Assembly: GCF_004348455.1 (NCBI RefSeq) | Contig: NZ_SMKA01000004.1 | Location: 1-64,000 of the forward strand | Length of the DNA: 64,000 bases | Direction of reading: 5' to 3' | From: Kribbella albertanoniae | GTDB taxonomy: Bacteria; Actinomycetota; Actinomycetes; Propionibacteriales; Kribbellaceae | Shown: positions 611 through 24,341 of the stretch, piece by piece | Layout: each line of letters opens with the position of its first letter | Numbering within the stretch: the first letter of the stretch is position 1 | The notes under the pieces: generated by a model | Seen by the model: the letters and a program-made list of their open reading frames with translations, nothing else | Told to the model about the DNA's origin: nothing | Database searches by the model: none | Program-made: the position numbers and the translations under genes

Positions 611-706
611 GGCGCGGTCGCTTCGCGATGGTGGGGTTGCTGGCCGCCCTTCGGATGTCCCTCCGCGGGTGCTGTCCCTCTCGGCCGGCGTGAGGTGGGT
701 CTGCCC

Positions 707-3700
707 ATGTATGTCCTGGATCGTTCTCAGCGTGCCCGAGTTCAGCGTTTCCCGCGGGTTGTCGCAGCATTCGTGGCTCTTTCGCTACTGGTGACTGGCT
801 TGGAAGCCGAGCAGCCGGCCCAGGCCGTGCCTGTGGCCGATCCGGTGCCGCCTGCTACGAAGGTGGCATCTCGACCGGACCTGGTGTCTGCGGTGGTGAC
901 TGCGCGGTCGCAGGGCGCGAAGGTCGAGGTCGAGTCGATGCGCACCGAGACGGCGACGACCTGGGCGAATCCGGACGGCACGATGACGACCGAGGCGCAC
1001 ATGGCGCCGGTCCGATTCAAGAACGCGTCAGGGCAGTGGCGGTCGGTCAACCTGGAACTGGCCAAGGGCACGGACGGGACGGTCGCGCCCAAGGGACATC
1101 AGTTGGGGTTGCGGCTGGGGAAGCGGACGACGGGGACCGGTGGGGTGTTCGCGTCGGCTGCTTCGGCTAACGGTGGGTTGATGGAGTGGCTGGCACCGTT
1201 CGGTCTGCCGGAACCGTCGGTCGGCGGGACGAAGGCGACGTACGCGGATGTCCAGCCTGGTGTGGACTTGGCGTTGGATGCCCGGCGTAGCGGGTTCGAG
1301 GCTGACTTCGTCGTGAAGTCGCGGCCGGAGTCGGCGCCGGTGTGGCGGCTCCCGTTGCGGACGAAGGGTTTGACCGCCCGTACGGCGAAGTCGGGTGTGA
1401 TCGAGTTCGTTGACGCGGGCAACGTCGTCCGGGGCCGGATCCCGGTGGCCTACATGTGGGACGCGGCGAAGAACCCGGTGACGGGTGAGCCGGCCACGAA
1501 GACCGTCGTGAGCGTGTCGGTGGAGCACGTGTCGCCGGGTAAGGCGACGCTGGTGGTCGCGCCGGACCAGGCGTGGTTCATGGACCCGGCGCGGGTGTTC
1601 CCGGTGACGGTCGATCCGACGTACGTGGCGGGGACAGCGTCGCCGTCGTTCGACACGTTCGTGCAGACGAGTGTGGGCACGGATTTGTCGTCGACGACGG
1701 ATCTGCGGGTGGGGAAGAACGGGACGCATCAGGAGCGGACGTTCTTCAACTTCGGCACGGGGCCGTTCCAGGGCAAGGACATTGTGTCGGCGACGTTGTC
1801 GCTGTATCAGGACGGCGCGACGACCTGTACGCCGACCGCGGTGAACCTGTACGGCGCTGGGGTCGCCTCGAGTTCGACGACGTGGGCGAATCAGCCGACG
1901 ATCTCGTCGACCCTGTCGGGTACGGCGTCATTCGCAAAGGGCTTCTCGGGTTCCTGTGTGGCCGGCCGGGTCGGGATTCCGATGACGAGCTTGGCGCAAT
2001 ACTGGGCCACGACCCAGGCTGGCACAGTCGGTGTCGCGCTGAAGGCAGCCAGTGAGTCGGATGCCAGTTACTGGAAGCGCTTCAGGTCGATGGAGTCGTC
2101 GACCGATCCGTTCGTGTCGTTCACCTGGAACCGCAAGCCGAACGCTCCCGCGACGGTCGAGCCCAGTGAAGCCGTCGCATACGCCGCTCCTGGCGAAACC
2201 AGCTCATCGCTCTATTCTGCGTCCCTGCGACCATGGGTACGTACCAAGGCCACGGACCCGGACGGAAACACGGTCAAGTACATCTTCGAGTTCTACACCG
2301 GCTCGGGCTCGACGCTGAGCGTTAAGGGCACCTGTACGTCGTCGGTGTACGCCTCGGGTACGACGGCCGGCTGCCGACCGGCGACCGACCTGCCCGACAA
2401 CACGCTGCTGTACATCCGGGCCAAGGCCAACGACGGCCGACTCGATGGTCCGTGGGTGAGCTACAACCAGCGGCTGCGGACCGGTGCGCAGACCCCGGCA
2501 CAACCTGCCATTTCCTGCCCTGCGCCGCACGGCAACAACACTTGGCAGGACACCGCACCGACCGTCGACGTCAAGTGCACGATCACCGCGACCGGCACCG
2601 GCTACAACGCCCCCGGCTACTTGCGCGTGATCATCGATGGCAAGCGTCCGGCCGCTAACCCCGCCGGGGGAGCGGAAGGCCAGATCAAGATCACACCATC
2701 TAGCGACCCGACGGTCGCGAAGTGGGACGTGACCTTCCCGAAGGACAAAGCGGGTCTGCACACGATCGTGACCCAGGCCGAGACCCCGGCCGGACGGTTC
2801 TCGACGCCGAACAAGACCCACGCTTTCGGCTGGGGCGGCACGGCGCTCACGTCACCGACCGCCGATCCGCGCATCACGACCGCAGACAACATCCGGGTCA
2901 CCGCTGCCGGCCCGCCCAAGGGGACCGCCTCAAACGTCTCGGCGCGGGTCAAGTGGCGCATCTCCGGGTACGGCGGTGCCGACGACCTGGTGGGCTGGAA
3001 TGAGGACGCCACCGACCTGCCGGTGACCGACAACGGCACGGGTGGTGTCACGGTCAACACGCTGTGGGACACGAAGAAAGCGACCTCGGACGCGAACCTG
3101 GACTCCGACCCTGACGCGGCTGGCGTGCAGCCGACTGTGCTGAACGAACGGGTCCCGGTGAAGCTCGACATCCAGGTCTGCTTCAAGTACGGCTCAACTG
3201 AACAGTGCACCTGGTCGCAAACTCCCGACACCACTATCCAGCGTGTACCGCATGCCTTCGGCAACGGCTATCCGACGGCCGAGGCAGGACCAGGCCAGGT
3301 CGCCTTGTCTACAGGTGAGTTCAACATGTCGGCGACCGACATCTCGGTCCCTGGCTACACCGGTGACCTGTCGATCTCGCGGTCACACATGACGTACGAG
3401 ACGCCGCGAACTCCGCTCGAGAACCTCTTCGGTGATGGCTGGAGCACACAGTTCGACGGCGCCGACGCTGGCGCTGCCGGCATGCAGGTGGTCGACTCCA
3501 CCAGGACCGACGGCACTCTCGTTTTGATGGACGGTGACGGAACGACGCTGGTCTTCGAGACGCCCAACGCCCAGCGTCGCACCACGGCCGCTTTCGCGAC
3601 CGGCAACTGGGTTCCGGTGGATGAGGACACGCAACTCGACGGGTCACGCCTGACCGTGTCCGGTTCGGGTGCGTCGACACTGCTGTCCTACACCGAGGAC

Positions 3701-6700
3701 GACGGCACCATCACGACCTGGACGCTCCCCGCCGCGCCGACGGCCAACGCCGACGCCCAGTTCCGCCCGGCCGGGATTGCCGAGCCAGGGATTGCTGGCA
3801 AGACGACCTTTTCCTACGACGGGACCGGGCGGGTGGCCCGGGTGATCGCACCCGCGCCGCCCGGTGTCACCTGTGGCGCCTTCAACCCATCGGCGCCCCT
3901 GACGGGTCTGAACCCTGGTTGCCGGGCGCTCCGGCTTGCCTACGACACCGTCGGTTCGTCCATGGTCCGGATCGGCGAGGCGTGGCTGGACATCTACAAT
4001 CCGGACAAGTCCGGTGGCGCCGGGATGGACTCCATCAAGGTCTCTACCTATAGCTACGACACGCTGGGGCGCCTGATCAGGGTCACCGACCCGCGGTCGA
4101 ACCTGTCCACGGAGTACGGCTACAACGAAGGCAACGATCTCATCTCGGTGAAGCCCGCCGGCCAGATCGCGTACCAGCTGAACTATCTCACCGTCGACCA
4201 GCGCCAGAAGCTTGACTCCGTCAAGCGTGACCGCCCTGCCGGCGACCCGACGGGCGGTACTGCGACTCTCGGGAAGTTCGTCTACGACGTGCCGTTGTCC
4301 GGCCCGGGCCTCCCCGACCTGTCGGCAACCTCGGTCGCACGCTGGAACCAGAAAAGCAGCCCGGCCAACGGTTATGCGGTCTTCGGGCCTGACCGCCTAA
4401 TCTCCGGCACACCAACTACTGACGACTGGCAGTACGCCGACCTTCAATACACCGACGCCGCCAACTACACCGTCAACACGTCCCAGTACGGCGCCGGAGA
4501 CTGGCAGTACACCTCGACCGACTACAACGAGGAGGGCAACATCGTCCGAGCACTCGACGAACGCGCCCTGCGGTCGGTGATCGACGGGTCCATGCCGCCC
4601 GGTGCGTCGGTCGATCAACTGGCTTCGCTGACGGTCTACAACGCCGACATCAAGAACGCCGCCGGCGACACCATCACACCTGCAGGCTCCATGGTTACCG
4701 ACGCCTATGGCCCTGCGCGCTATGCCGCCCTGAAGGACGGCACTGTCACCTGGATCCGCCCGCACTCCCGCACCACCTACGACCAGGACGCGCCAAACGC
4801 GGGCATCAACCCCGACACATCGCTGCCCTACCGGCTGGCCACCAGCGAAACCTCCTATGCCCACGACCCCGGTACGGGCACCGACCTCGAGATCACAGGC
4901 CGAACCCTTACTGACTACGCAGCGCCCATCGCTGGCGATACCGACGGCTGGGCACAGAGCCGGCCGAGCAAGACCATCGCTGATCTAGATCTCGACGGCA
5001 TCAACAGTGCCGGCGACATTGCCAAGACCACGCGGTACGACGCGGAGGGTCGTGTCGTCGAGACCCGGCAACCGGCCTCAAATGGTTCTGATGCCGGTAC
5101 GACGAAAACCGTCTACTACACCACGGTCGCCAACAGTCAGTTCGCCGAGTGTGGAGGAAAGCCACAATGGGCCGGGCTGGTCTGCAAGACGTATCCGGCT
5201 GCCCAGCCGAACTCTGCCGCAGGATCGACGCCGACCCTGCCCTCCACCACGACGAGTGCGTTTACCTACCTGCTCGCGCCGAAGACCGTCACCGAAACCT
5301 CAGGGCCGGTAACACGCACCAGCACCACGTCGTTCCTCCTCGACGGCCGCACCGCCTCCACCAAGACGACCGTCGACGGCCTGACTGGGTCGAAGGCGAT
5401 CACGGAAAAGATCCCGACCTACGACACAGCCACTGGGCAGGCGATCCTGACGACCGCGAAGAACTCGAGCGGTGAAACCGTCGGCACCGTCACGACTGGC
5501 TATGACACCTGGGGCCGGCAGACCACATACCAGCCATCCGGCGAAACTGCCTCCACTACGGTTTACGACGCAGCAGGCCGAACCAAGACGGTTACCGACG
5601 CCAACGGCTCCACCACTTACACCTACGACGGCACTGATGCCGTCGGCAACTCTGAGCACCGCGGCCTGCCGACCAAGGTCGAGGTCACGACGGCCGGATC
5701 CACTTGGACATCGGTGGGCGCTTACGACGCCGACGGTGCCCAGACGATCCAGAAGCTGCCGGGCGGCATCACGCAGTACAACGACATCGACAACGCAGGC
5801 GAAGCGGGCGGCCGACGCTACACCGGGCAGGTCACCTCGCTGAACGCGGACGGTTCGACCACCGTTGACCCGAACGGCCCCTGGCTGTCCTGGTCAATCG
5901 AAAACGATGTCGATGGCCGTGTCGTCCGCGAGTGGACCCCCGACGGCGCTGCGTTCACCGGCCCAGCCGGCGATGCCCCGGGCGATGCCATCCCCTACGA
6001 CCGTGCCTACACCTACGACAACGCCGGCCGCCTGACCCAGGTCCGCGACCGCACTGCCGCGGCCACCGGCATCGACGTCACAGACCCGTCCGAAATACCG
6101 TCTTGCATCACCCGCAGCTACGGCTTCGACCGCAACGACAATCGCCTCACAAAGGCCACCGCCCCAGCTGCAACTGACGGCGCCTGCACCACGACAGGCG
6201 CCACGACAGTCACTCATGCCTTCGATACCGCAGACCGCCCAACCACCGGTGCCAACGGCATCGGAACCTACAGCTACGACGCCCTGGGCCGCACCACGAA
6301 TCTGCCAGCCGCGGATGCTCCACATCCGACCGACGGCGACATAACCCTGTCCTACTACGACAATGACCTGCCAGAGTCCATCAGCCAGGGCGGTACCACG
6401 ACGTCGTTCACCTTGGATGCGGCTGACCGACGCTCCACAGAATCAGTCACTGACGCAACCGGCACCAAGCAGACAGTCCGTCACTATGCAGACAGCTCCG
6501 ACAACCCCACCTGGGTAACCCAGGGCAGCGTCACCACCCGCTACGCTGAACTCATCGGTGACGACCTCAACCTCACCGTGGACCAGACGGGCGCCGCCGA
6601 CCTCACGATCGCCAATCCTCACGGCGACGTGGTCACCTCTGTCGAGTTGCCCGCCGCAGGCACAGCGGCAACCTCGATCGGCGGCTGGAACGGCTATGAC

Positions 6701-7390
6701 GAGTACGGCAACGCGGCCGCAGCCAATGCCAACCACACCGGCACTGTCAACTACGGATGGGTAGGCGCCAAGCAGCGAGCAACCTCAGGCGCAGGCCTGG
6801 TCCTGATGGGGGTTCGCCTCTACAACGCAGCGACCGGGCTCTTCACCTCGCTGGATCCGGTCGCGGGCGGCAACGCCAACGCCTACATCTACCCGGCCGA
6901 CCCGATCAACAGCTCCGACCTCGACGGCCAGTGGAAGAGGCCCAAGTGGCTCAACTGGAAGAACGTCGCCAGGGTCGCCACCGTCGCTGCGTTCGGCGCC
7001 TGCATCGTCGTCTCGGCCGGCGCCTGCCTGGCCGCCGGAGTTGTCGCAGCCGGTCTCTCCGCCCGCGCGAAAACCGGCACCTTCAAAAGCAGGAGGTTCC
7101 TGAAGGCATGGGGCGTCGGCTCGCTGTGGGCCCTGGGAGGCGGCGTCGTAGGCAAGGGCATCGGTAAGATGTACGGCGAGCGAGGCGTCCGGTACGCCAA
7201 GCACATGCGGATCGGGAAGTGGCGATCGCGCTGGCTGCGGAGGGTACGAGGGTTCAACGGCAGGCCGACCACACCACGCCGGGGAATGTACTACGTGCAC
7301 CAGGCAATGACCGGTGGCTACATGAGCGCCGCACAGGCAGTCAATTGGAAGAAGAAGCCGCGGCGCAGCCGCGCCCAGTACATCGATTAA
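707..7390 (+). CDS. Secreted RHS-repeat polymorphic toxin with DNRLRE domain
   Basis: This 2227-residue protein has an N-terminal signal (hydrophobic [14 protein letters not shown], Ala-rich cleavage region). A DNRLRE-type domain spans roughly 310-475 ([22 protein letters not shown]), followed by Ig-like stretches. YD/RHS repeats such as [10 protein letters not shown] and [10 protein letters not shown] run from about 850 to 2070. The RHS core ends with [13 protein letters not shown]...SSDLDGQ. After DLDGQ come about 150 variable residues, the expected toxin tip: a hydrophobic segment ([18 protein letters not shown]) then a very basic tail ending [13 protein letters not shown] do not recognise the tip. 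ATG 707 is preferred over GTG 695 because GAGGTGG lies 8 bp upstream. The next two genes are immunity candidates. RHS cores of this type encapsulate a toxic C-terminus; toxicity here is inferred. Confidence 0.85.
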
Positions 7391-9158: not shown

Positions 9159-12100
9159 TCAGCCCCGCGTGAGCGGCGGACTCGCAGCAGGGTCATCGAC
9201 TCCGGCGCCGTCATGGTGCTGGATCGCGAACCCCTGGCCGGACTCGGGGGGAGCGAGGTGGAGTGCGGTGGTGAGGCGGCTGTAGGCGGCGTACTGGGCG
9301 GCAGCGGTTGGCTGCGGAGGTTCACCAAGTGGGTCGGCAGTGTGGATGCCGTACCGCTCGCGATAGGCCACGATCTGGCGAAGCCATTCGGTGCGCTGTG
9401 AGGCGGATTGGTCAGAGACGAAACGGTCGAAGGCTTGGTACCAGGGAGGCGCCTCGTGAATCGCCTGCTCTGTCAGCCAATCAACGCGTTGCACGATTTG
9501 GTTCTCGATCTCGCGGAGCGGTGCAACCAACAGGGGGTCGCTGGTCTGACGAGCCGGACTGACCATCCCGGCGATCAGGATCGGCTGGCGACCTGTCTGG
9601 CGAGCGGATCTGTGGAGTAGGCGCAGCGCCCTGGTGTGGAGGACTGCGGCCAGGTCATGCGCATCCGTCAGGGGCGCCTGGTTGACGGCCATGCGAAGGA
9701 AGTCTGCGACGTTGAAACCGACGCTCTCGGCACGTCGCAGCGCCGCGGTCAAGGCGCCATACGCCGCAGATGCCTGAAGTGCGGCCTGGTCGGCAGAGTC
9801 CAATCCGCTGGTGGCGATGGCACCCGCGTAGCGGGTGCGGGCGTCTAGTTGGCAGAGGTGTTCGTGGATGGGGACTAGGCGGTCGAGGCGGGTGGCGTTG
9901 TCTAGCTCTTGACGCATGACTTCGTGGGCGGAGAGTTCTACGCCGGGGTTGTCGAGGACGGCTTCCAGGACGTCCTGCATCGTTTGCTCGAGCTGGGGTT
10001 CGTGGAGGTCTGGGGTGGGTTGGTGGGTGGTGATGTAGGCGTGGTTGGAGTGGCGGCCGCGGGTTAGGCCTACGTAGAGGAGGGCTCGGGTGAGGTGGTC
10101 GGTGACTACTAGGTGGGCGGTGTCGACTGTGGCGCCTTGGGCTCGGTGGGCTGTGGTGGCGTAGGCGAGTTCTACGGATTCTTGGACGTAGGTGGTGGGG
10201 AGGGTGACGGTGTCGTTGTTGTGGTTTTGGACGGTGAGGGAGCCGTCGGGCCAGCGGTGGATGACGGTCCAGTGGTCGCCGTTTTGGACGAAGCCGGTTT
10301 GGCCGTAGCGGAGGCGGCGGTTGTTGAGGCGGGTGACGATGTGGTCGCCGAGGCCTACGGCGGTGCCGTCGTGGAGTTCGACACCGTCGGGTTCGACTTC
10401 GCCGGTGGTGATGCGGTCCAGGCGGGCTCGGGCGTTGAGGCGGGCGACGGTGGCGTTGTCGGCGGCGATGAGGAGGCTGATTTTGCCGGTATGGATGTCG
10501 GCTCGCCAGGCTTGGTAAGCGGCGTCTTCCATTTCGTCTGCGGGGCCGGCTGCCAGGCGATCGTGCTCGTCATACGCGTCGATGACATCGAAGTGGCCGG
10601 CGCGGAGGGCGAGACTGGCATCGCGTTCCCAAGGGTTGGTGAAACGCCAGACATCGCTGAGTTCAGCGGCGTCGGTGTCGTTGGCGACGAGGCGGAAGGC
10701 GCCGCCGGTGTCGGCCGCTCCGAGTTGGGCGTCGTCGCCGATGAGAAGGAGTTTTGCTCCAGCCGCATCGGTTGCGCGGGCGAGGGTGGCGAGTTCCATG
10801 GTGCCGGCCATGGAGGCTTCGTCGATGATGACGAGTTGGTTCTTGTGGAAGGTCCATCGGTCGTCTTCGGCGCGGAGGCCGGCCAGCTGCGTGATGAGGG
10901 AATGGTGGCGGAGTCGGCGCCGACTGCGGTGGGCGAGGTGGGCGGCGTGCTCGGTTTCTTGGATGCGTTGTCGGCGGATCTCAGCGCCGAGGCCGGCGGA
11001 TTCGTAGATCCATTTGGCGATGTTCTCGGTTGGAGCTCCGATGGCGTCCGAGAGGATGGTGGAGGCGGCTGATGACGGAGCTAGGGCGATGATCGAGCCT
11101 TCGCCGTGGGCTCTCTGCCATGTGGAGCTCAGGGCGGACAGGAGGCTTGTCTTGCCGGTTCCGGCTGGTCCGCGGAGAGCTTCGACCTTCTGTCCGCTGG
11201 TGGCGATGCGGTGAAGTGCCCGGACCTTATCGGCGCTCAGGTTGTCTGCCTGGACGAGTCGATAGCTGATCTTCGGGCCGGCTGCGTCACGTGCCAGATC
11301 GAGGAGCACGGCCTCGGCGCCGAGGATGACGGGTGAGGTGTAGATCTGGCCATTGTGGATGGTGAAGACGCTCTCGCCGCTGGCGCGAGCTATCGGGACG
11401 GCGACCAGCTCTGGTGCGGTGAGACTGATGGAGTGCTGTTCGGCGCGCTCGACAATTGCCTGGAGTACGTCGAAGCGATCAGTCGACGAGATCAACCGAA
11501 GTAGCCGGGTTTGGCGGGCTGCCTCGGCCATCAGGTTCCAGCGGGTCCATGTGGCGCGCTTGTTCTGGAGGGTCAGAACGGTGGCCGCGCCGTACGCGTC
11601 GATCGTCTCCGGGCTGAGATCTGCGGCGGCGAGTGGTCGCTCACCTTGGTGTTCGAGAGACTGCTGAATCGTGGCCAGGACGTCGGCACCGACGGCTCGA
11701 TGCGCGCGGTTCTTCCACTCGGCCATCATGGCTGCGAGCGGTCGCGCCTGGTGCTTCGGTGGCCGGTTCAGGAGTGTTGCCTGCTGTCTGAGGACGTACA
11801 TCTCGCGGCGGCTGGGCGGGTGGGACCGGTCGCTCCGTTGTTCGAGCAGGGTGGCGAGGTTGGCCTCGATTTGCTCCGTTCTGGCTGAGAACTCGTTGAT
11901 CAGTTCGTCTGGGATCACGTCGATCTCGAAGGCTGGATTCCGACTGGATCCGCGCTCGCGCAGCTCCCATCCGACGCCGAGTCGGCGGGTCAGATTGTCG
12001 GCCAGGAGGACGTTGTGGATCTCGGACATCGCTACAGTCGCGCGATGGAGTACGCGGCTGTCGAGCGTCCGCCAGACGCCGTCCTCGCGGCCCTGAACGC

Positions 12101-12782
12101 GGTTGGCGACGACCACATGTGTGTGAAGTTGTGGGTCGCCACTCCGCGTGTCCCAGTGGTCGAACGTTGCCGCGATGACGCCGCGGATGTCGAGTTGCGC
12201 GATGCCGTGTTCGCCGGACCGGGTGAAGGCTGCGTGCTGTTCGATCAAGGTGACTACGTCGTGGACGGCCTCGTGATGGGCGGCGACGATCTGCTCCTGG
12301 ACGCCGACATCGGTCGTCGCCCAGAGGGCTGATACCGACTTGACGGGGGAGAACGTGAAGTCGAAGCCGGCCACGGCATGTTTCGTCTTCTTACGCATCT
12401 CGGTCTTGCGGATCTGCGCAATAGCGGCTTGTCGCTGCACGTCATCCAGGCTTGGTGAGAGGCGGCGGATCTCAGCTCGAATCCGCTCGGACGGGGACGG
12501 ATATGTCGGATACGGGCGCCCGAGAATTCGACCGTTGAGCGGGTCCTCGCCGCGGCCGAACAGAGCTGCCATCGAGTCTTCTGTCACCTCGGTTCCGGGC
12601 AGGAGCAGGCCGTCGCCGAGGCCGGGTAAGCCGCTTCCGATCCACCGGCCAGGTGGGTATCCGGTGGACGTGTAGTAGGCCGTCAGAGGGGTTGCCATCC
12701 TGCGGTCGAGGTCGCCGGACGCGATGTGCTGCAAGAGGTATTTGTAGCCGTCTCCAGCTGTCAGTCGATGGATCGTCAGCAT
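9159..12782 (-). CDS. MobF-family conjugative relaxase-helicase
   Basis: It encodes 1207 residues from ATG at 12782 (MLTIHRLTAGDGYKYL). Residues 1-300 form a TrwC-type relaxase: AYYTSTGY with paired Tyr36-Tyr37, and a metal-binding HUH-type triad at His209, His220 and His222 (FDHW...LHTHVVV). The C-terminal half is a RecD/TraI-like SF1 helicase: Walker A GPAGTGKTS at 538-546, Walker B VIIDEAS near 651-657, and a late ATTAHRAQGAT helicase motif. It would nick oriT, stay bound to the transferred strand and unwind it for the coupling protein encoded at the left edge. It reads as intact. The upstream intergenic region is a natural place for its oriT. Confidence 0.92.
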   Translation of the reverse strand: MLTIHRLTAGDGYKYLLQHIASGDLDRRMATPLTAYYTSTGYPPGRWIGSGLPGLGDGLLLPGTEVTEDSMAALFGRGEDPLNGRILGRPYPTYPSPSERIRAEIRRLSPSLDDVQRQAAIAQIRKTEMRKKTKHAVAGFDFTFSPVKSVSALWATTDVGVQEQIVAAHHEAVHDVVTLIEQHAAFTRSGEHGIAQLDIRGVIAATFDHWDTRSGDPQLHTHVVVANRVQGREDGVWRTLDSRVLHRATVAMSEIHNVLLADNLTRRLGVGWELRERGSSRNPAFEIDVIPDELINEFSARTEQIEANLATLLEQRSDRSHPPSRREMYVLRQQATLLNRPPKHQARPLAAMMAEWKNRAHRAVGADVLATIQQSLEHQGERPLAAADLSPETIDAYGAATVLTLQNKRATWTRWNLMAEAARQTRLLRLISSTDRFDVLQAIVERAEQHSISLTAPELVAVPIARASGESVFTIHNGQIYTSPVILGAEAVLLDLARDAAGPKISYRLVQADNLSADKVRALHRIATSGQKVEALRGPAGTGKTSLLSALSSTWQRAHGEGSIIALAPSSAASTILSDAIGAPTENIAKWIYESAGLGAEIRRQRIQETEHAAHLAHRSRRRLRHHSLITQLAGLRAEDDRWTFHKNQLVIIDEASMAGTMELATLARATDAAGAKLLLIGDDAQLGAADTGGAFRLVANDTDAAELSDVWRFTNPWERDASLALRAGHFDVIDAYDEHDRLAAGPADEMEDAAYQAWRADIHTGKISLLIAADNATVARLNARARLDRITTGEVEPDGVELHDGTAVGLGDHIVTRLNNRRLRYGQTGFVQNGDHWTVIHRWPDGSLTVQNHNNDTVTLPTTYVQESVELAYATTAHRAQGATVDTAHLVVTDHLTRALLYVGLTRGRHSNHAYITTHQPTPDLHEPQLEQTMQDVLEAVLDNPGVELSAHEVMRQELDNATRLDRLVPIHEHLCQLDARTRYAGAIATSGLDSADQAALQASAAYGALTAALRRAESVGFNVADFLRMAVNQAPLTDAHDLAAVLHTRALRLLHRSARQTGRQPILIAGMVSPARQTSDPLLVAPLREIENQIVQRVDWLTEQAIHEAPPWYQAFDRFVSDQSASQRTEWLRQIVAYRERYGIHTADPLGEPPQPTAAAQYAAYSRLTTALHLAPPESGQGFAIQHHDGAGVDDPAASPPLTRG

Positions 12783-13027
12783 CCGGAGCCGCCCTGTGAA
12801 CGGCCTGCAGGACGTTGTCGGGTTCGCGTCATAACCACTCAACGGCGCAAGCGCCGTACCTCTGATTCCTGCCGTGCAGGCAAGGCCTGCTCCTTGCGTG
12901 CCAGATGTGTGACGGTGCTTGCCCTTGCCGCGAAGGGCAAAAAGTTGTCCTCGGCATCCGTTGAGTGGCGGTGAACCCATCGGCCAGTCCTGAAGGCGGC
13001 ACTCAGGACTCCAACGGAAGGACGCAG
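12783..13027. other. Palindrome-rich divergent intergenic region, candidate oriT
   Basis: These 245 bp separate the relaxase (minus) from the plus-strand operon. I see three perfect short inverted repeats: CGGCGC-aa-GCGCCG at 12843-12856, GCAGGC-aag-GCCTGC at 12876-12890, and TTGCCCTT-gccgcg-AAGGGCAA at 12919-12940. Clustered hairpins next to a MobF gene are typical of origins of transfer. No nic consensus is recognised, so the call is an inference. The promoters of both flanking units should also lie here. Confidence 0.4.
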
Positions 13028-13366
13028 ATGAACACACACGATGATCCGGTACGACGACGTCTCGTTGACCTGGTCACGCGCGCCGAGGCGATCGTCGAGG
13101 CGATGGAGTCGACCACACTGGATGGCCGGTGGGCGATGACAGCGTTCGGTCGCTACCGGCTATGCGCTCTGCTCGGAATCGCGCCGTACGGAATCTACGA
13201 GGGCGACCTTGAGGCGGATCCCGTCGCGCTCATCGAGGAGGCGGCCGGACTCGCAGACGTGCTGGAGGTCTCCCTCGAGGAAGTCAGTTGGCGGCTGGCG
13301 CTTGGCGATGCACTTCGTACTGCGGCCACGGACATCCGGATGGTGCGCGATGCGCACGACGTATGA
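13028..13366 (+). CDS. Hypothetical conjugative-element protein
   Basis: It encodes 112 residues from ATG 13028, with GGAAGGA about 8 bp upstream. It is mostly helical and acidic-basic mixed (RRRLVDLVTRAEAIVEAMES, then EDPVALIEEAAGLAD-like helices) and has no Cys, signal peptide or membrane segment. The 3' end overlaps the next gene by 17 bp. It opens a five-gene unit ending in an excisionase, reading away from the relaxase, so it may belong to element maintenance or regulation. I do not recognise the family. Confidence 0.6.
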   Translation: MNTHDDPVRRRLVDLVTRAEAIVEAMESTTLDGRWAMTAFGRYRLCALLGIAPYGIYEGDLEADPVALIEEAAGLADVLEVSLEEVSWRLALGDALRTAATDIRMVRDAHDV

Positions 13367-15178: not shown

Positions 15179-15519
15179 CGGTGGGCGCCAGCGAGAGAGC
15201 CGCTGCTCTGCGGCGTGCTCGAGAACGGCAGGCGAGGATCGAGGCCGCGACCGCCAGCGCGGTTGCGGCGCAGGGCAACGTCGTACGGGCCAGCGAAGCG
15301 AAAGCTCAAGCGATGGAACGCCATGATGAGCGCATCGCCGCGACTGAGTTGCTGTGCCAGTCAGAGATCGCCCGACTGACGAAGGCCTGCGGATCGGCCG
15401 AAGCTGCTGCGGAGATCCTTGGGGTCTCGCAGAGGGAGGTACGGCGGGTGGTCAAGGCCGAGCGCACCCGCCTGATGAATCGAAGTCCCAGGACGGAGCT
15501 GCGCGATGACGATGTCTGA
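15175..15519 (+). CDS. Small helical protein with C-terminal helix-turn-helix
   Basis: It encodes 114 residues from a GTG that overlaps the previous TGA (GTGA). Residues 1-75 form a charged Ala/Glu/Arg helix resembling a coiled coil. Residues 80-105 (SAEAAAEILGVSQREVRRVV) look like a homeodomain-like helix-turn-helix that could bind DNA. There is no membrane segment. It lies directly before the excisionase, which begins 14 bp inside its 3' end. A DNA-binding accessory or regulatory role in the integrative element is likely. I do not know the exact family. Confidence 0.6.
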   Translation: MTVGASERAAALRRARERQARIEAATASAVAAQGNVVRASEAKAQAMERHDERIAATELLCQSEIARLTKACGSAEAAAEILGVSQREVRRVVKAERTRLMNRSPRTELRDDDV

Positions 15520-15715
15520 CGCCGATCCGCTGTGGGACATCGATCAGGTCGCGGCTTACCTGAAGGTTCCGAAGCGCACCTTGTACCGCTGGCGAACGTA
15601 TGGCTACGGCCCACCGGGCAGGCGCGTGGGTCGCCACGTTCGTTACCGCGCGAGCGAAGTCATCGCCTGGTTCGCGGGTCTGAGCGACCATGATCCCAAG
15701 GAGAGCTGGGAGTAG
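15506..15715 (+). CDS. Excisionase-like MerR-type helix-turn-helix protein
   Basis: This is a 69-residue protein. DIDQVAAYLKVPKRTLYRWR followed by GPPGRRVGRHVRYRASEV is the classic HTH_17/Xis pattern: a winged helix with a wing ending in VRYR...V..W. Xis proteins bend att DNA and direct the integrase to excise. ATG 15506 is preceded by AGGACGGAG; ATG 15512 is possible. Integrative elements normally have int right after xis, but here the next gene is convergent and overlaps the last 56 bp, and no integrase is seen in the window. Confidence 0.75.
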   Translation: MTMSDADPLWDIDQVAAYLKVPKRTLYRWRTYGYGPPGRRVGRHVRYRASEVIAWFAGLSDHDPKESWE

Positions 15716-16656: not shown

Positions 16657-16756
16657 CTTCGGCACCCCTCCATCGGCTTGGTTGGTCGCTCGACGGCACT
16701 GCCGAGCGTGTCCCAAGCCTGTCGGCGACAGGCCGGACAGCAGAACCCTGTCCTCA

Positions 16757-16808
16757 GACATTTACGGACATTTCGTGCTACTGTCCTATCAGACATTTAC
16801 CGACATCT
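16757..16808 (+). promoter_or_regulatory. Two GACATYT direct-repeat sites and promoter of the first XRE-DUF5919 gene
   Basis: Two 17-bp sites each contain GACAT repeated at a 10-bp period: GACATTTACGGACATTT (16757-16773) and GACATTTACCGACATCT (16792-16808). Between them TACTGT (16779-16784) with CAGACA (16755-16760) 18 bp upstream forms a plausible promoter. The first site covers the -35 and spacer, and the second covers the start of transcription. This is what repressor binding, possibly autoregulation, would need. Confidence 0.55.
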
Positions 16809-16812
16809 ACCC

Positions 16813-17523
16813 ATGAGTAAGGGTTCGATTCGAGTGAACGAGGTGCTCCGGCGCGCGATGTACGACGCAGGCTTCACCGAGGTGGACCTGTCGGTCGAAC
16901 TCTCCGTCGATCCGAAGACGGTTCGGAACTGGATGCGAGGTCAGGTGCCTCACCCGGGTAGTCGTATCGCGCTGGCTGCTGCGTTGGGTGTCGAGGCTGA
17001 AGTGCTGTGGCCGCGGCTCGATGCAACGCTGCCCGGCGCCGGCAAGCCGTCGGATCTGGCTGCGGTGTACCCGAGGCGCTCCGGTATCACTCGATCGGAC
17101 TGGCTGGCATTCTTCGCTGCGGGTAGAACGGACATCGCTTTGCTTGCCAGCGCTTCGGATCTGCTGCTCCAGGACGCCGAGGTCGTCCAGCTCCTTGCGG
17201 CCAAGAGTGAAGGCGGTGCCCGAGTGCGGGTCGTGCTTGCGTCGGAGCAACCGGGATCCTCAAGCTCCTTGAGGCGTCTGCATCCCTTGATGCAGGCTGG
17301 GATCGTCGAGTTGAGGTTGCACGACGACGCAGGCATGTACAACTCGATCTACATCTCGGATGACCAGTTGCTCGTCAACCAGCGTGCATATGGCGTGTCG
17401 GACTCGGAGTCGCCGGTCTATCACTACCGCCGCTCCGAACATGGAGAGATGTTCGGCACCTACGTGAACAGCTTCGAGATGATCTGGTCGGCTTCTCGGG
17501 AAAACGTGAGTGCGAGCGGCTGA
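16813..17523 (+). CDS. XRE-family regulator with DUF5919 domain
   Basis: It encodes 236 residues from ATG 16813, the first start after the promoter. Residues 5-60 are an XRE HTH (VLRRAMYDAGFTEVDLSVEL, then DPKTVRNWMRG). A linker with AVYPRRSGITRSDW leads into a PLD-like DUF5919 domain with VVLASEQPGSS, MYNSIYISDDQLLVNQ and a terminal NSFEMIW. The HKD catalytic motifs of true phospholipase D are absent, so the domain is probably a ligand sensor. A paralog at 18626-19369 shares the order and many motifs (AVYPRRSG/KVYPRRSD; MYNSIY/LYNSIY). It is probably a transcription factor acting on the GACATYT sites. Confidence 0.8.
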   Translation: MSKGSIRVNEVLRRAMYDAGFTEVDLSVELSVDPKTVRNWMRGQVPHPGSRIALAAALGVEAEVLWPRLDATLPGAGKPSDLAAVYPRRSGITRSDWLAFFAAGRTDIALLASASDLLLQDAEVVQLLAAKSEGGARVRVVLASEQPGSSSSLRRLHPLMQAGIVELRLHDDAGMYNSIYISDDQLLVNQRAYGVSDSESPVYHYRRSEHGEMFGTYVNSFEMIWSASRENVSASG

Positions 17524-17529
17524 TCGTCG

Positions 17530-17546
17530 GACATCTCCCGACAACT
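17530..17546 (+). promoter_or_regulatory. GACATYT direct-repeat site upstream of the HD gene
   Basis: GACATCTCCCGACAACT has the same 10-bp spacing as the sites near 16.8 kb, with a degenerate second half. It lies 62 bp before the HD-domain start. A TACTGT -10-like hexamer at 17599-17604 is only 3-6 bp before ATG 17608/17611, so the message may be leaderless. Confidence 0.45.
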
Positions 17547-17607
17547 GGCTGCCCGGAGATTTCGGCAGATGTGGTTCTGATGTCCGGCCGGTACGTCGTA
17601 CTGTCGA

Positions 17608-18153
17608 ATGATGATCGATGTCGAGGAAGCGACGGCCTTGGCCGGGCGATTGCTCCGGGAGTATCTGCCGCGGCGCTGGGCGCACACACAAGGAGTCGGA
17701 GCTCGGGCTGAGGGGCTGCGAGACACCCTGGGGGAGCGAGCCCGAGTGGTCGAGGTGGCTGCATGGCTTCACGACATTGGATACTCACCAGTGCTGCGGT
17801 CGACTGGTTTTCATCCGCTGGATGGTGCGCGGTACCTGCGAGATGTGGTGGTGGCCGACGACATGGTGTGCCGCCTGGTTGCGCATCACAGCGGCGCTCT
17901 TGTTGAGGCCGATGAGCGTGGCATCTCTGAGCTGGCCGATGAGTTTCGGTTGCCGGATGCCGAGCTGCTCGAGGCGTTGACGTACTGCGATCTGACGACG
18001 GATCCGGATGGTTGCCAGGTCAGCGTCGAGGAACGGCTGAGCGAGATCCTGATGAGGTACTCGAGCGAACACGTCGTGCACAGGTCGGTGGTTCGCTCCG
18101 CGCCCTCGCTGCGGAGAGCAGCCCTCAACGTGCAAAGGCGGTTGCATCGCTAG
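17608..18153 (+). CDS. HD-domain phosphohydrolase
   Basis: In this 181-residue protein an HD metal site is visible: WAHTQGV (His25), AAWLHDIGYSP (His55-Asp56) and LVAHHSG (His91-His92), followed by helical C-terminal sequence. HD proteins of this size hydrolyse phosphomonoesters or diesters of nucleotides; the substrate is unknown. It follows the first XRE-DUF5919 gene on the same strand after an 84-bp gap with its own operator-like site. Its stop overlaps by four bases the stop of the convergent NUDIX gene. A nucleotide-processing pair (HD plus NUDIX) between two paralogous regulators suggests a common nucleotide signal or salvage role, which is inferred. Confidence 0.8.
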   Translation: MMIDVEEATALAGRLLREYLPRRWAHTQGVGARAEGLRDTLGERARVVEVAAWLHDIGYSPVLRSTGFHPLDGARYLRDVVVADDMVCRLVAHHSGALVEADERGISELADEFRLPDAELLEALTYCDLTTDPDGCQVSVEERLSEILMRYSSEHVVHRSVVRSAPSLRRAALNVQRRLHR

Positions 18154-18626
18154 TCGAAGTAGATGGTCTCGCCGGGTGTGAGGTAGTGCTCGATTCGGCG
18201 GCGCATCGAGCGGTCCATCTGAAGGTCCGCGAGCTTGGATCGCGGAACCCAGTGGACCTGGGTGCTCTCGCTGCTCGTGGTCAGGTCTCCGCCGGTGGCG
18301 CGTGCACGAAGTAGGATCGAGAACTCTTGGCGGGCCTCGCCGTTGCTGGTGTAGAGGATGACGTGTTTCGGGTCGGTGTAGATGCCGATCACGTCGACGA
18401 TCTCGCAGTCGACGCCGGTCTCTTCCTTGGTTTCGCGGACGCCGGCCTGCGACATCGACTCGCCTAGGTCGATGCCTCCGCCCGGGAGGGCCCAGTTACC
18501 GTTGTCTGAGCGCTCGATGAGCAGGATGTCACCTTCGTCGTTCTCGATCACCACGTTGACTGACGGGACCATGCTGTTGACCGTGGGCGCGTTCGGGTCG
18601 TCGTAGTAGTCGATGCGTTTCGGCAT
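18150..18626 (-). CDS. NUDIX hydrolase
   Basis: In this 158-residue protein the Nudix box is complete: GGIDLGESMSQAGVRETKEE followed by TGV, matching Gx5Ex7REUxEExGU with metal-binding glutamates. The usual flanking strands (SVNVVIENDEGDILLIERS; NWALPGGG) are present. Nudix enzymes hydrolyse nucleoside diphosphate-X compounds; the substrate is not predictable. The ATG at 18626 shares a base with the TAA of the XRE-DUF5919 gene (TAATG), so the two are coupled. XRE-DUF5919 and NUDIX genes adjacent to each other are, to my knowledge, a recurrent actinobacterial pairing. Confidence 0.9.
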   Translation of the reverse strand: MPKRIDYYDDPNAPTVNSMVPSVNVVIENDEGDILLIERSDNGNWALPGGGIDLGESMSQAGVRETKEETGVDCEIVDVIGIYTDPKHVILYTSNGEARQEFSILLRARATGGDLTTSSESTQVHWVPRSKLADLQMDRSMRRRIEHYLTPGETIYFD

Positions 18627-19369
18627 TAGTCCTCCGTCATCGGCGTCGCATCGGTCCAAACCCGTTCGAAGCTCTCGAGGTAGTGCCCTGCGAGTTCGCC
18701 GCCCGGAATCTTCCGTAGGTGCCACACCGGGGCCTGAGCGGCTGGAAGGCCGTACACGTGGGTGTTGACGAACAGACGGTCGTCAGCGCGGTAGATCGAG
18801 TTGTACAAGACGGTCCTGTGGATCCTGAACTCGACGCCGGCGGTGCGCGAAAGATCGCCGTACAGGGCGACTGCGTTACGAATCTTGGCGGCCACCGCAT
18901 CGCCGATGCCTTCTTCCCGGCCCCGGCTTGCAACGCTCGCGTCATCGGGATCGCCGATCAGGATCCGGACGCGGGCGCCGGCCTTGGCCTGCTTCCGGAG
19001 GATGCGCTGGAGGCCGGCGTCCTCGGCCAGGAAGAGGCCGGCGTAGACGAGGATCCCGATCTCTTCGGTGCCTGATTGGAAGAGATGGCGCCATTCGTCG
19101 GCGGGTACGTCGGATCGTCGTGGGTAGACCTTGACGATCTCGCTCTCGGAGATCGCGGCCGCCTTGTCGCGGGGGAGCGCGTCGGGCCACAGATAGGACT
19201 CGTCGCGACCGAGACGAGCCGCCACGGCGTGCCTGTTCCGCGCGAATGGGAGATAGTCGCCAACGACCCACCGTTCAATGGTCTTGACGTTGACACCAAG
19301 CTCCTCCGCGAGGGCATGATGGGTGAGGCCTTGCTCCACCATCGCTGCTCGCAGTCGTTCGTTAGGCAC
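18626..19369 (-). CDS. XRE-family regulator with DUF5919 domain, second copy
   Basis: It encodes 247 residues from GTG 19369. The HTH occupies roughly residues 3-60 (RLRAAMVEQGLTHHALAEEL, then NVKTIERWVVGDYLPF), followed by KVYPRRSDVPADEWRHLFQSG and a PLD-like DUF5919 domain (VRILIGDPDD, LYNSIYRADDRLFVNTHVYG, ending YLESFERVW). It is paralogous to the gene at 16813-17523 but not a recent duplicate, as many residues differ. A longer reading to 19570 would swallow the operator sites at 19384-19430, so the GTG start is preferred. It forms a coupled operon with the NUDIX gene and probably reads the same GACATYT sites. Confidence 0.8.
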   Translation of the reverse strand: MPNERLRAAMVEQGLTHHALAEELGVNVKTIERWVVGDYLPFARNRHAVAARLGRDESYLWPDALPRDKAAAISESEIVKVYPRRSDVPADEWRHLFQSGTEEIGILVYAGLFLAEDAGLQRILRKQAKAGARVRILIGDPDDASVASRGREEGIGDAVAAKIRNAVALYGDLSRTAGVEFRIHRTVLYNSIYRADDRLFVNTHVYGLPAAQAPVWHLRKIPGGELAGHYLESFERVWTDATPMTED

Positions 19370-19383
19370 GAGACCTAACCTAA

Positions 19384-19430
19384 GACATTTCGGGACATTT
19401 TGAGGCCAACCGAGACATCCCGGAGATGTC
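19384..19430. promoter_or_regulatory. Paired operator sites between the second XRE-DUF5919 gene and the next gene
   Basis: GACATTTCGGGACATTT (19384-19400) is a near-perfect copy of the 10-bp-period direct repeat. GACATCCCGGAGATGTC (19414-19430) is a perfect 6-5-6 inverted repeat of the same half-site and also 17 bp long. They lie between a minus-strand and a plus-strand gene, so they could control both. The first site is 15 bp upstream of the GTG at 19369. Confidence 0.5.
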
Positions 19431-19497
19431 GGCCGGTGCCGTGTCGCTGTCCGGCGGTTCTGATGCATCCTGCCTGCACGAGCCCGAGGAGGGTGAC

Positions 19498-19851
19498 ATG
19501 CGAGGCACGAAGATGTACGCGTTCGAGATTGCCACGCGCGGTAGAGGCGGCGAGTGGGTGACCGTGGCATCCGGCTTGGGTGTGTTCAGCCGGGCACCGA
19601 AGCCGACCGTGCGCAGCATCGCCGAGAGGTGGATCCACGAGCAGACCGGCCGCCTCCGCGGTGGCCGACTGATCGTCGTTGGGCGACGGCGGGCAGCTCC
19701 CCGCGGCTTCGTGCCCAGCGTGCGTATCAGGCTGACGGATCGGGCCGGCGATCGCCCGCTGGCTTCGGCGTACATCGGGGTCGACCGCCGAGACGTCGTA
19801 CGACGAGATGGCTACGAGCTGCCGACTCCAACGGGTGCTGATCGTGGGTGA
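19498..19851 (+). CDS. Hypothetical protein
   Basis: It encodes 117 residues from ATG 19498, which has a strong ribosome site (GAGGAGGGTG). The sequence is basic with beta-like strands (KMYAFEIATRGRGGEWVTVA, GRLIVVGRRR, VRIRLTD) and an acidic/basic end. There is no membrane segment or known motif. It follows the operator pair at 19384-19430, and its stop overlaps the start of the 479-residue XRE-like gene, so it probably begins a three-gene operon through the PPC-domain gene. Function unknown. Confidence 0.6.
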   Translation: MRGTKMYAFEIATRGRGGEWVTVASGLGVFSRAPKPTVRSIAERWIHEQTGRLRGGRLIVVGRRRAAPRGFVPSVRIRLTDRAGDRPLASAYIGVDRRDVVRRDGYELPTPTGADRG

Positions 19852-21283
19852 CCGTGGGCGGAAACCCAACAAGGTGCTCCGCAACGCTCGCGGGCCGCTG
19901 TCGCAGGAGGTCCTGGCCGAAAAGCTCAACGCATCGATCTACCGTGCTACCGGCCAGGTCGCGGAGATCTCGTCGAAGGTGATCTCGGATTACGAGCGCG
20001 GGTGGTACCAATGGCCTCGGGAGCCCCTGCGGAGCGCATTCTGCGAGGTTCTCGGAGTGCGGACGCCCGAGGAGCTCGGATTCCAGAATCCCCGGTCGGG
20101 GCCGCGGCCATCAGCGCCCGCGTCCGTCGACCTGCTGGCGCTCGCCGGGACGAGGAGCGCGTCGGGGCCGGTCGAGTGCGTAAGGGTGCCGGGTGGACGG
20201 TCGTACTTCGGCGCCGACCTCTCTGCGCACTACACCACCGCGAACCGGCAAGGCAGCGAACTCTTCTTGGTCGAACCTAGCGAGGAGATGTTGGCGGGAC
20301 TGGTTCGGCCCGACCGACGATCCCTGGTGGTGGCTGTCGATCGTGATCGACGTAGTTACGTCGCCGATGGCCGTCGATTCATGGACCGAGCCGGGCGAGG
20401 TATTGGTCCGCAGGCAGTGTCTGCTGCGAACGTCGTCGACGATCTGACCCTCGGCGTCATCTGGGCGACGACCAATGCCGATTCGTCGTTGCTTGCTGAT
20501 GACGGCCACCTTGAGCGAAGTCAGGCGTATGTCACCGATCAGGAGAGTCGGTCGGTCTCACGTGGTGATGTCGAGGAGGTGCCGCTCCTGAACCCGGTGG
20601 CCGGCCAGTGGCTGGGTTCACAATTCTGCTCGCGGCACATCCTGCGCAACCTGGACCAGCTAGGCGAGGAGCCGCTGTTTTGGACGCGTGAGCAGCGGGG
20701 CGAGGAGGCGGCGGCCTGGTTGCTGTGGTCGCACAAGTTTGACTACCTGCGGCGTACGTCGCGAAGGTTCACGACTCTGCGTCGCGGGTTCTGTATCCCG
20801 GAGAGCGAGGTCCAGGCCTCTCCAGGCTACGAGCGAGTCTTGCTCCTGCTCGCGATGGCACTGATGGAGGGCTTCGGTATCAAGGTGGAACTCAGCGTGG
20901 AGCCCGAGCATGCTGAGGTGGAAGGCTTCGTACTGGCAGGCCAAGCGGTCGTCGCCAACTGGCTGGGCAGTCCGGGCTTGTGGTGCGTCGAGGCCAGCGC
21001 CCCAGCGTCCCGCCTGGTTACCTATCGGGAGCTTGCCGGGCAGGTGAGCGGCGAATCGTCGCTGCCTCAGACGACCCCAGCCGGACGACTGGAAGCGTTG
21101 GCTGACCACCTGCAGGTGCCGTGGGGATGGTTCCGGCGAAGGTGCACAGAGCTTGCAACCGTGGGTGTCGACGACGTCTGTCACCCGCGCAGCCGCCTAC
21201 TGTCGACCCGCGGGCTGAACACAGCCATCAGTTTTGTGTCCTACATCGACGTCCTCGAGGGAGAAGACTTTGCGCGCCGCTGA
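19844..21283 (+). CDS. XRE-like HTH protein with large C-terminal domain of unknown function
   Basis: It encodes about 479 residues from GTG 19844; GTG 19835 or ATG 19808 are alternatives and would overlap the previous gene more. The N-terminus resembles an XRE domain (GPLSQEVLAEKLNASIYRAT, then KVISDYERGW). The C-terminal 380 residues show SRRFTTLRRGFCIPESEV and WLLWSHKFDYLRR but no catalytic motif I recognise. TETRRSL-like or periplasmic features are absent, so it should be cytoplasmic. It may be a regulator sensing the same signal as its neighbours. The PPC gene starts 14 bp inside its 3' end. Confidence 0.6.
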   Translation: MGDRGRKPNKVLRNARGPLSQEVLAEKLNASIYRATGQVAEISSKVISDYERGWYQWPREPLRSAFCEVLGVRTPEELGFQNPRSGPRPSAPASVDLLALAGTRSASGPVECVRVPGGRSYFGADLSAHYTTANRQGSELFLVEPSEEMLAGLVRPDRRSLVVAVDRDRRSYVADGRRFMDRAGRGIGPQAVSAANVVDDLTLGVIWATTNADSSLLADDGHLERSQAYVTDQESRSVSRGDVEEVPLLNPVAGQWLGSQFCSRHILRNLDQLGEEPLFWTREQRGEEAAAWLLWSHKFDYLRRTSRRFTTLRRGFCIPESEVQASPGYERVLLLLAMALMEGFGIKVELSVEPEHAEVEGFVLAGQAVVANWLGSPGLWCVEASAPASRLVTYRELAGQVSGESSLPQTTPAGRLEALADHLQVPWGWFRRRCTELATVGVDDVCHPRSRLLSTRGLNTAISFVSYIDVLEGEDFARR

Positions 21284-24294: not shown

Positions 24295-24341
24295 CACTCG
24301 TAATGAGAAGGTCGTCGGTTCGATTCCGACAGGCGGCTCCA
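24295..24341 (+). other. tRNA-Thr(CGT) 3' fragment, inferred att site (element boundary)
   Basis: The sequence from CACTCGTAA through GGCTCCA forms the 3' half of a tRNA: anticodon loop CTCGTAA (anticodon CGT, Thr), 3' anticodon-stem strand TGAGA, variable loop AGGTC, T-arm GTCGG-TTCGATT-CCGAC, acceptor AGGCGGC, then TCCA. The 5' side has only two matching anticodon-stem pairs and no D-arm, so it is not a functional tRNA. Such a duplicated 3' end is the hallmark of tRNA-targeted integration, with the element to the left. The exact identity block cannot be fixed without the intact tRNA, which should lie beyond the left edge. Confidence 0.75.

Follow-up and report, generated by a model that had tools for sequence, protein, structure and literature searches.

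A gene cluster composed of an HD-domain metal-dependent phosphohydrolase (mdp), a NUDIX hydrolase (nud) and an XRE regulator (xre) has been described in four Frankia actinomycete integrative and conjugative elements (AICEs) and in Sco5349, pMEA100 and pSE211, according to the available portions of PMC3218068, so that the module as a gene cluster is already known. The NUDIX protein Pif of pSAM2 is a conjugal immunity factor according to the accessible parts of PMC3218068 and PMC9513070; the former calls its mechanism unknown and also suggests that NUDIX-based conjugal immunity is widespread in actinomycete elements. The word operator is absent from the main text of PMC3218068, a literature search (titles and abstracts, with most subscription papers outside its coverage) returned no operator for the mdp-nud-xre module, and a literature search on DUF5919 returned no papers. 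Here, we analysed a stretch of 64,000 nucleotides from Kribbella albertanoniae (NCBI RefSeq assembly GCF_004348455.1, contig NZ_SMKA01000004.1, positions 1 to 64,000 of the forward strand; hereafter, the window), in which adjacent XRE, NUDIX and HD genes fit the gene content of this AICE cluster and 17-bp tandem repeats precede two XRE genes. Likened by gene kinds alone, the two loci share a phosphohydrolase, a NUDIX hydrolase and an XRE regulator side by side, whereas in the window there is a MobF-type relaxase, TrwC, and the HD gene is preceded by a second, convergent XRE. The best explanation of the whole, which we consider likely, is that the repeats are operators of the adjacent XRE/DUF5919-type regulators, which would regulate themselves by binding side by side.

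Two described regulators are close in the way they meet DNA. SinR, an Xre protein of Bacillus subtilis, uses 7-bp half-sites in tandem and inverted arrangements at promoters (PMC3163267, PMC5733473, in their available portions), and resembles the window regulators in its Cro/CI-type helix-turn-helix (HTH) and the length of its half-sites. It differs in binding the inverted pair about 10-fold better than the tandem one, according to the same portions, whereas here the tandem pair with a 3-bp spacer is the fixed unit. BldC, a MerR-like actinomycete regulator, binds tandem repeats head-to-tail with one-turn spacing (PMC5859096, accessible parts); it shares with the present case the tandem sites and their period, and differs in its HTH family, its AATT-containing half-site and its lack of an effector domain. 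The initial annotation of the window had called such an arrangement atypical for XRE dimers; it is unusual, but with SinR and BldC tandem binding has precedent, in the case of SinR within the Xre proteins themselves.

The island in the window is convergent, with XRE1 and the HD gene on the plus strand and the NUDIX gene and XRE2 on the minus strand. Its features are as follows:

16736 to 16738, plus strand: outlying GAC, exactly 21 bp ahead of tandem operator 1, an offset conserved in the wider family
16757 to 16773, plus strand: predicted tandem operator 1 of XRE1, GACATTTACGGACATTT; exact motif, position kept in orthologs
16779 to 16784, plus strand: candidate -10 hexamer TACTGT between the two tandem sites, picked by eye; similar hexamers in relatives
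16792 to 16808, plus strand: predicted tandem operator 2 of XRE1, GACATTTACCGACATCT; exact motif, 35 bp after operator 1
16813 to 17523, plus strand: XRE1 regulator, 236 residues, HTH and DUF5919-like domain; start codon picked by eye
17530 to 17546, plus strand: imperfect tandem site before the HD gene, one mismatch, not conserved
17608 to 18153, plus strand: HD-domain phosphohydrolase, mdp-like (PF01966, 38.2 bits against a cut-off of 22)
18150 to 18626, minus strand: NUDIX hydrolase with Nudix box (PF00293, E-value 8.7e-22)
18626 to 19369, minus strand: XRE2 regulator, 247 residues, HTH and phospholipase D (PLD)-like fold, modelled at a predicted local distance difference test score (pLDDT) of 91.2
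19377 to 19382, minus strand: candidate -10 hexamer TAGGTT for XRE2, picked by eye and directly preceding the GTG start; present in most same-genus XRE2 promoters
19384 to 19400, plus strand: predicted tandem operator of XRE2, opposite in strand to its gene and 15 bp away from the GTG start codon
19414 to 19430, no strand assigned: inverted half-site pair, upstream arm of the predicted XRE2 operator
19449 to 19451, minus strand: outlying GAC, 21 bp ahead of the half-site GACATCT at 19430, a conserved offset
19498 to 19851, plus strand: small divergent gene, 117 residues, with homologs in 6 other stretches

The motif, GACATYT-N3-GACATYT or GACATYTNNNGACATYT, is real and far from chance. The initial annotation had listed four direct-repeat sites, of which those at 16757, 16792 and 19384 are exact; the one at 17530 is the weakest of them. 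The inverted version that it had placed at 19414, GACATCCCGGAGATGTC, is borne out as an inverted pair of 6-bp arms. The XRE1 promoter carries two tandem pairs in the same orientation 35 bp apart (34 to 35 bp in most two-site relatives) and the XRE2 promoter one opposite-strand tandem pair plus the inverted pair. At up to three mismatches the window holds 16 sites against 7.65 expected, a number reached in 0 of 100 shuffles. The 9.7-Mb assembly contains six exact sites, of which the window locus and contig C11 have three each; every one lies upstream of an XRE gene, either of the window locus or of its second copy. The C11 region is this second, diverged copy of the element segment (about 69 to 76% DNA identity over the three longest blocks), and matching tandem sites precede both of its XRE genes.

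Both the exact pattern and the XRE2 protein were then looked for across 38 genomes of the genus, that of the window included. Each of the 37 exact sites proved to be upstream of an XRE gene; the distance to the matched start is at most 100 bp for 36 of them and 1402 bp for the remaining one. A reversed control pattern occurred once. Exact sites were present in 13 of the 19 genomes with an XRE versus none of the 19 without (Fisher p 1e-5, uncorrected for relatedness, the genomes being of one genus and not independent lineages). This confinement of the sites to XRE genes and XRE-bearing genomes implies that, in these genomes, the exact motif goes with XRE and not with a host regulon. Relatives of XRE1 were sought in 293 genomes of the order and found in 29, including its own (E-value at most 1e-10), and the 36 stretches retrieved around them were mapped with the window proteins; the counts that follow for the same-genus stretches were made by eye, and the XRE and HD starts used for the same-genus promoters, the HD promoters, the half-site typing and the covariation were extrapolated from tblastn ends. 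Seventeen same-genus stretches, the window and L009 included, carry both XREs, and 33 of their 34 XRE promoters have GACRTYT-N3-GACRTYT (fourth base A or G) with at most one mismatch within 110 bp; the lone exception is XRE2 of L062, with an exact site 1.4 kb upstream of it. The offset of the XRE2 site is identical in 13 of 19 same-genus promoters and one base off in 5, with none near in 1, and the inverted pair takes the same form as at 19414 in 7 of the 19.

Outside the genus, we examined the best 80 of 523 confirmed candidate loci (79 of them new: L084 is the same record as L016), with the XRE promoter region taken as -200 to +20 of the XRE and flanks amounting to 806,703 bases. With GACATYT halves, 21 of the 80 loci have a site with at most one mismatch at the XRE promoter, and there is none in the flanks. 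With GACRTYT halves and a spacer of 3, there are 20 loci with an exact site and 57 with at most one mismatch, compared to 2 exact sites and 3 with at most one mismatch in the flanks; spacers of 0 to 2 and 4 to 7 gave no exact site in any of the 80 loci and at most 5 loci with one mismatch. The 10-bp period noticed in the window is thus a fixed one. A search for the motif in related genomes, which the initial annotation had proposed, finds it upstream of XRE genes both within the genus and beyond it; the motif tracks the XRE genes, and the outcome that would have spoken against it, homologs without the motif, is not what was found. The three tandem sites away from XRE promoters belong to L120, L128 and L158, that of L158 being exact and 3.3 kb upstream of its XRE. 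These counts establish the motif, its spacing and its association with XRE genes. It is a genuine operator-like element devoted to XRE/DUF5919-type regulators of actinomycetes, many of which reside in mobile elements.

The conserved layout extends beyond the tandem pair. We aligned 90 promoters on this pair, dropped 7 low-scoring rows as well as truncated ones, and reduced the remainder to 49 with a 75% identity threshold. A GAC lies exactly 21 bp before the tandem pair in 33 of the 49, while any other offset from -35 to -6 has at most 6, and an inverted pair starts 11 to 13 bp after the tandem pair in 31, with 8 having it elsewhere and 10 having none. The half-sites therefore stand at about 0, 10, 30 and 40 bp, with one at -21, a spacing that places all of them near one DNA face. 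A -10-like hexamer, identified by eye, lies between the pairs (e.g., TACTGT at 16779), and in our reading the half-site GACA is placed about where a -35 element would be. Many relatives have a further conserved box, GGAC...CACCGCA-like, at about -22 to -6 from the tandem pair, the middle of which is not explained by the half-sites. The operator, its extended layout and the two-XRE variant are apparently new.

The regulators had been labelled XRE-DUF5919, which holds for the family more than for the window proteins: 36 of 47 family members match DUF5919 at an E-value of at most 0.01 (11 of 47 match PLDc_2), but XRE2 scores 18.4 bits, below the Pfam cut-off of 23.5 (PF19319), and XRE1 is not reported. 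A model of XRE2 built on a 47-sequence alignment (pLDDT 91.2, predicted template-modelling score 0.70) has an N-terminal HTH and a C-terminal PLD fold. Residues 1 to 65 resemble P22 c2 (Z 10.9) and SinR (Z 10.1), a Cro/CI-type HTH fold, with Pfam HTH scores under the cut-off, and the top structural matches are TrmBL2 (Z 14.0, 2.9 A over 137 residues), FAM83B (Z 14.0), Nuc (Z 12.9) and TrmB (Z 12.6); these matches denote likeness and not function, and the match list may miss a family. The HKD (HxKx4D) catalytic pattern occurs in 0 of 133 family members, 102 of which have Tyr-Asn-Ser at the place that we equate with it. A PLD fold without the HKD motif naturally suggests a sensor rather than an enzyme, and the XRE is, judging from the model, probably a ligand-sensing repressor built like archaeal TrmB. 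TrmB and TrmBL2 are alike in fusing a DNA-binding domain to a PLD-fold domain, although their DNA-binding domain is of a different type, and TrmB has a sugar-binding domain according to the title of its structure entry, whereas the ligand of the XRE is only conjectured. SinR is not known to have a PLD-fold domain.

With regard to gene content, the order XRE1-HD-NUDIX-XRE2 is kept in 13 of the 17 two-XRE stretches, some with inserted DNA, and two of the 17 have two extra element genes between HD and NUDIX. In the 80 loci outside the genus, NUDIX directly follows XRE in 78 and HD is near in 40. The island had been read at the outset as a self-contained signalling unit. XRE and NUDIX, often together with HD, do form a conserved unit, but two of the 17 stretches (L055 and L058) have both XREs and their operators without an HD or NUDIX match, so the regulators can do without both enzymes. 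The pairing of regulators, also noted at the outset, recurs in the 17 same-genus stretches, but many relatives have a single XRE, which makes the pair a local variant. The Nudix box pattern G.{5}E.{7}RE..EE.G is present in 109 of 110 best hits (the U positions lie outside it, the window protein having Thr at the first), and the HD pattern H..HD..HH..D in 53 of 64. In PADLOC, the NUDIX protein matches PDC-S07 (E-value 3.2e-10) and the small HTH protein mad1 (E-value 6.7e-9), with weaker matches to Cas3-HD and RmrA. In L009, which is the second copy of the element, XRE1 and HD are about 3.9 kb apart and have other frames between them (L009:6659-10612), compared to 84 bp in the window, and one of these frames resembles an ECF (extracytoplasmic function)-type sigma factor by eye. 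The small 117-residue gene had no family match in a scan that used a longer start. Next to it, 19847-21283 encodes a 478-residue protein with a weak N-terminal HTH match and otherwise no family, which in each of the 17 same-genus two-XRE stretches is located next to the island or inside it.

The surroundings of the island include two genes assigned by family match:

9159 to 13037: TrwC relaxase
15506 to 15715: excisionase-/BldC-like HTH protein (HTH_17)

Other element genes of the window encode an M78 peptidase, a PCC-domain protein and a DNAG_N protein. Of the AICE traits FtsK-type transfer and RepSA, a scanned subset of the window proteins gave the TrwC relaxase and the DNAG_N protein, and the contig starts at window base 1. 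FtsK- or RepSA-like genes are found in the flanks of 37 of the 80 loci, including L152 (Amycolatopsis acididurans), the source of the queries, where RepSA and FtsK_SpoIIIE lie beside XRE-NUDIX-HD with a tandem operator. A phage origin was considered and set aside: one phage record carries a 31% relative of XRE2, and seven plasmid records carry a relative of the L016 protein. An intact tRNA-Thr(CGT) gene on contig C111 has the 37 bases of 24305-24341 as its 3′ end, and this stretch looks like an attachment site of the element, whose other end did not turn up. A third copy of the 37 bases is at C111:173879, beside an integrase-like frame scoring below its family cut-off. Near the left contig end, a very long frame (695-7390) has an RHS repeat match in its first 1636 residues.

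In the mechanism that we favour, each XRE promoter would present a pair of neighbouring 7-bp half-sites spaced by one helical turn, downstream of it another pair around the -10-like hexamer (inverted in most relatives, in the same orientation at XRE1) and, two turns upstream, an additional GAC. Several XRE subunits would line up along one face of the DNA and so silence their own promoter, from which a small, perhaps nucleotide-like, ligand would release them. XRE would control the xre-nud operon of a mobile element, with HD (mdp) as a companion enzyme, and the likeliest role would be in maintaining the element, for instance through conjugal immunity or by holding the element silent. Because the two XREs that the module often has in the genus of the window share an operator code, each probably also represses the other. 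Pif is likewise a NUDIX protein encoded by an actinomycete mobile element, a likeness in protein kind, and the NUDIX protein of the window may confer immunity too. The nucleotide signal, immunity and a two-XRE switch are reasonable proposals.

Several observations weigh against this reading. The 80 loci came from a scan of named genomes with one recognition-helix pattern, and 23 of them have no GACRTYT site with at most one mismatch at the XRE promoter. In the looser alignment 7 of 90 promoters have no acceptable site, 18 of the 49 thinned promoters have no inverted pair at 11 to 13 bp, and 6 of the 19 XRE-bearing same-genus genomes have no exact GACATYT site, three of these having GACGT forms. 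The window has no further site with at most one mismatch, which does not support a control of transfer or replication genes. The initial annotation had also placed a site just upstream of HD; among 64 HD promoters, a site with at most one mismatch occurs only in that of the window itself (at 17530), and sites with at most two in 6, so a conserved operator at the HD promoter was rejected. Finally, as raw counts, XRE residues 39 and 45 go with the base at position 4 of the second half-site in 112 and 113, respectively, of the 122 proteins analysed (122 of 133 proteins, low-scoring sites excluded), but on the tree this covariation is not significant (median p 1 and 0.25). The independent changes are few and their direction is nearly always as expected; with its significance lost after tree correction, the covariation was rejected as proof of recognition and is a lead only.

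The repeats could instead be iteron-like or processing sites for the replication, excision or transfer of the element, as the TrwC relaxase, the DNAG_N protein and the helical period of the tandem sites might suggest. We consider this very improbable, as the sites lie at XRE promoters at a near-constant distance from the start codon across many contexts, with a -10-like hexamer (by eye) between their arms, and as the flanks hold just the three sites noted above despite the FtsK- or RepSA-like genes of 37 loci. It also seems improbable, if slightly less so, that a different regulator binds the sites, be it the HTH protein at 15506-15715 or a host factor, with the XREs as mere neighbours. Although BldC binds tandem repeats in just this manner (PMC5859096, available portions) and a small HTH_17 protein is encoded in the element, a homolog of this protein is found in the flanks of 12 of the 80 loci (by eye; several at the very edge, so that more may lie outside) compared to the motif in 57, and the absence of exact sites from the 19 XRE-free same-genus genomes implies that no host regulon uses the motif there.

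A more serious possibility, though still an unlikely one, is that the XREs are mainly activators, or form a CI/Cro-like bistable two-protein switch in the two-XRE elements, instead of being simple autorepressors. Half-site typing (129 of 137 promoters, low-scoring sites excluded) places both XREs of an element under one operator type: most same-genus elements have GACAT before each XRE, and L059-L061 have a GACGT half-site before each. In L065, which belongs to another genus, GACGT forms precede XRE1, and the GACGT-type site of XRE2 is poor. However, the GACGT elements are few and related, and in relatives with a single XRE the operator is laid out similarly around the promoter, which suits repression. 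Going beyond the autoregulation that we favour, one could speculate, with considerable doubt, that these proteins are an undescribed regulator class, in which TrmB-like sensors on a Cro/CI-type HTH would bind as cooperative head-to-tail pairs to a five-half-site operator (GAC at -21, two tandem, the -10, two inverted). Such regulators would read a nucleotide-like signal set by the linked NUDIX and HD enzymes and decide whether the element accepts or refuses another copy, and the two-XRE elements would be a CI/Cro-like switch with a shared operator code.

In summary, the 17-bp tandem repeat offers a clear case of half-sites with a one-turn period for a Cro/CI-type protein with a predicted PLD-fold domain. 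With a precise operator, the regulon can be predicted and such modules can be recognised from their DNA pattern; autoregulation can be probed with short DNA and the ligand sought by a binding assay. Hence, a gene module that is unstudied but widespread gains a testable control mechanism.

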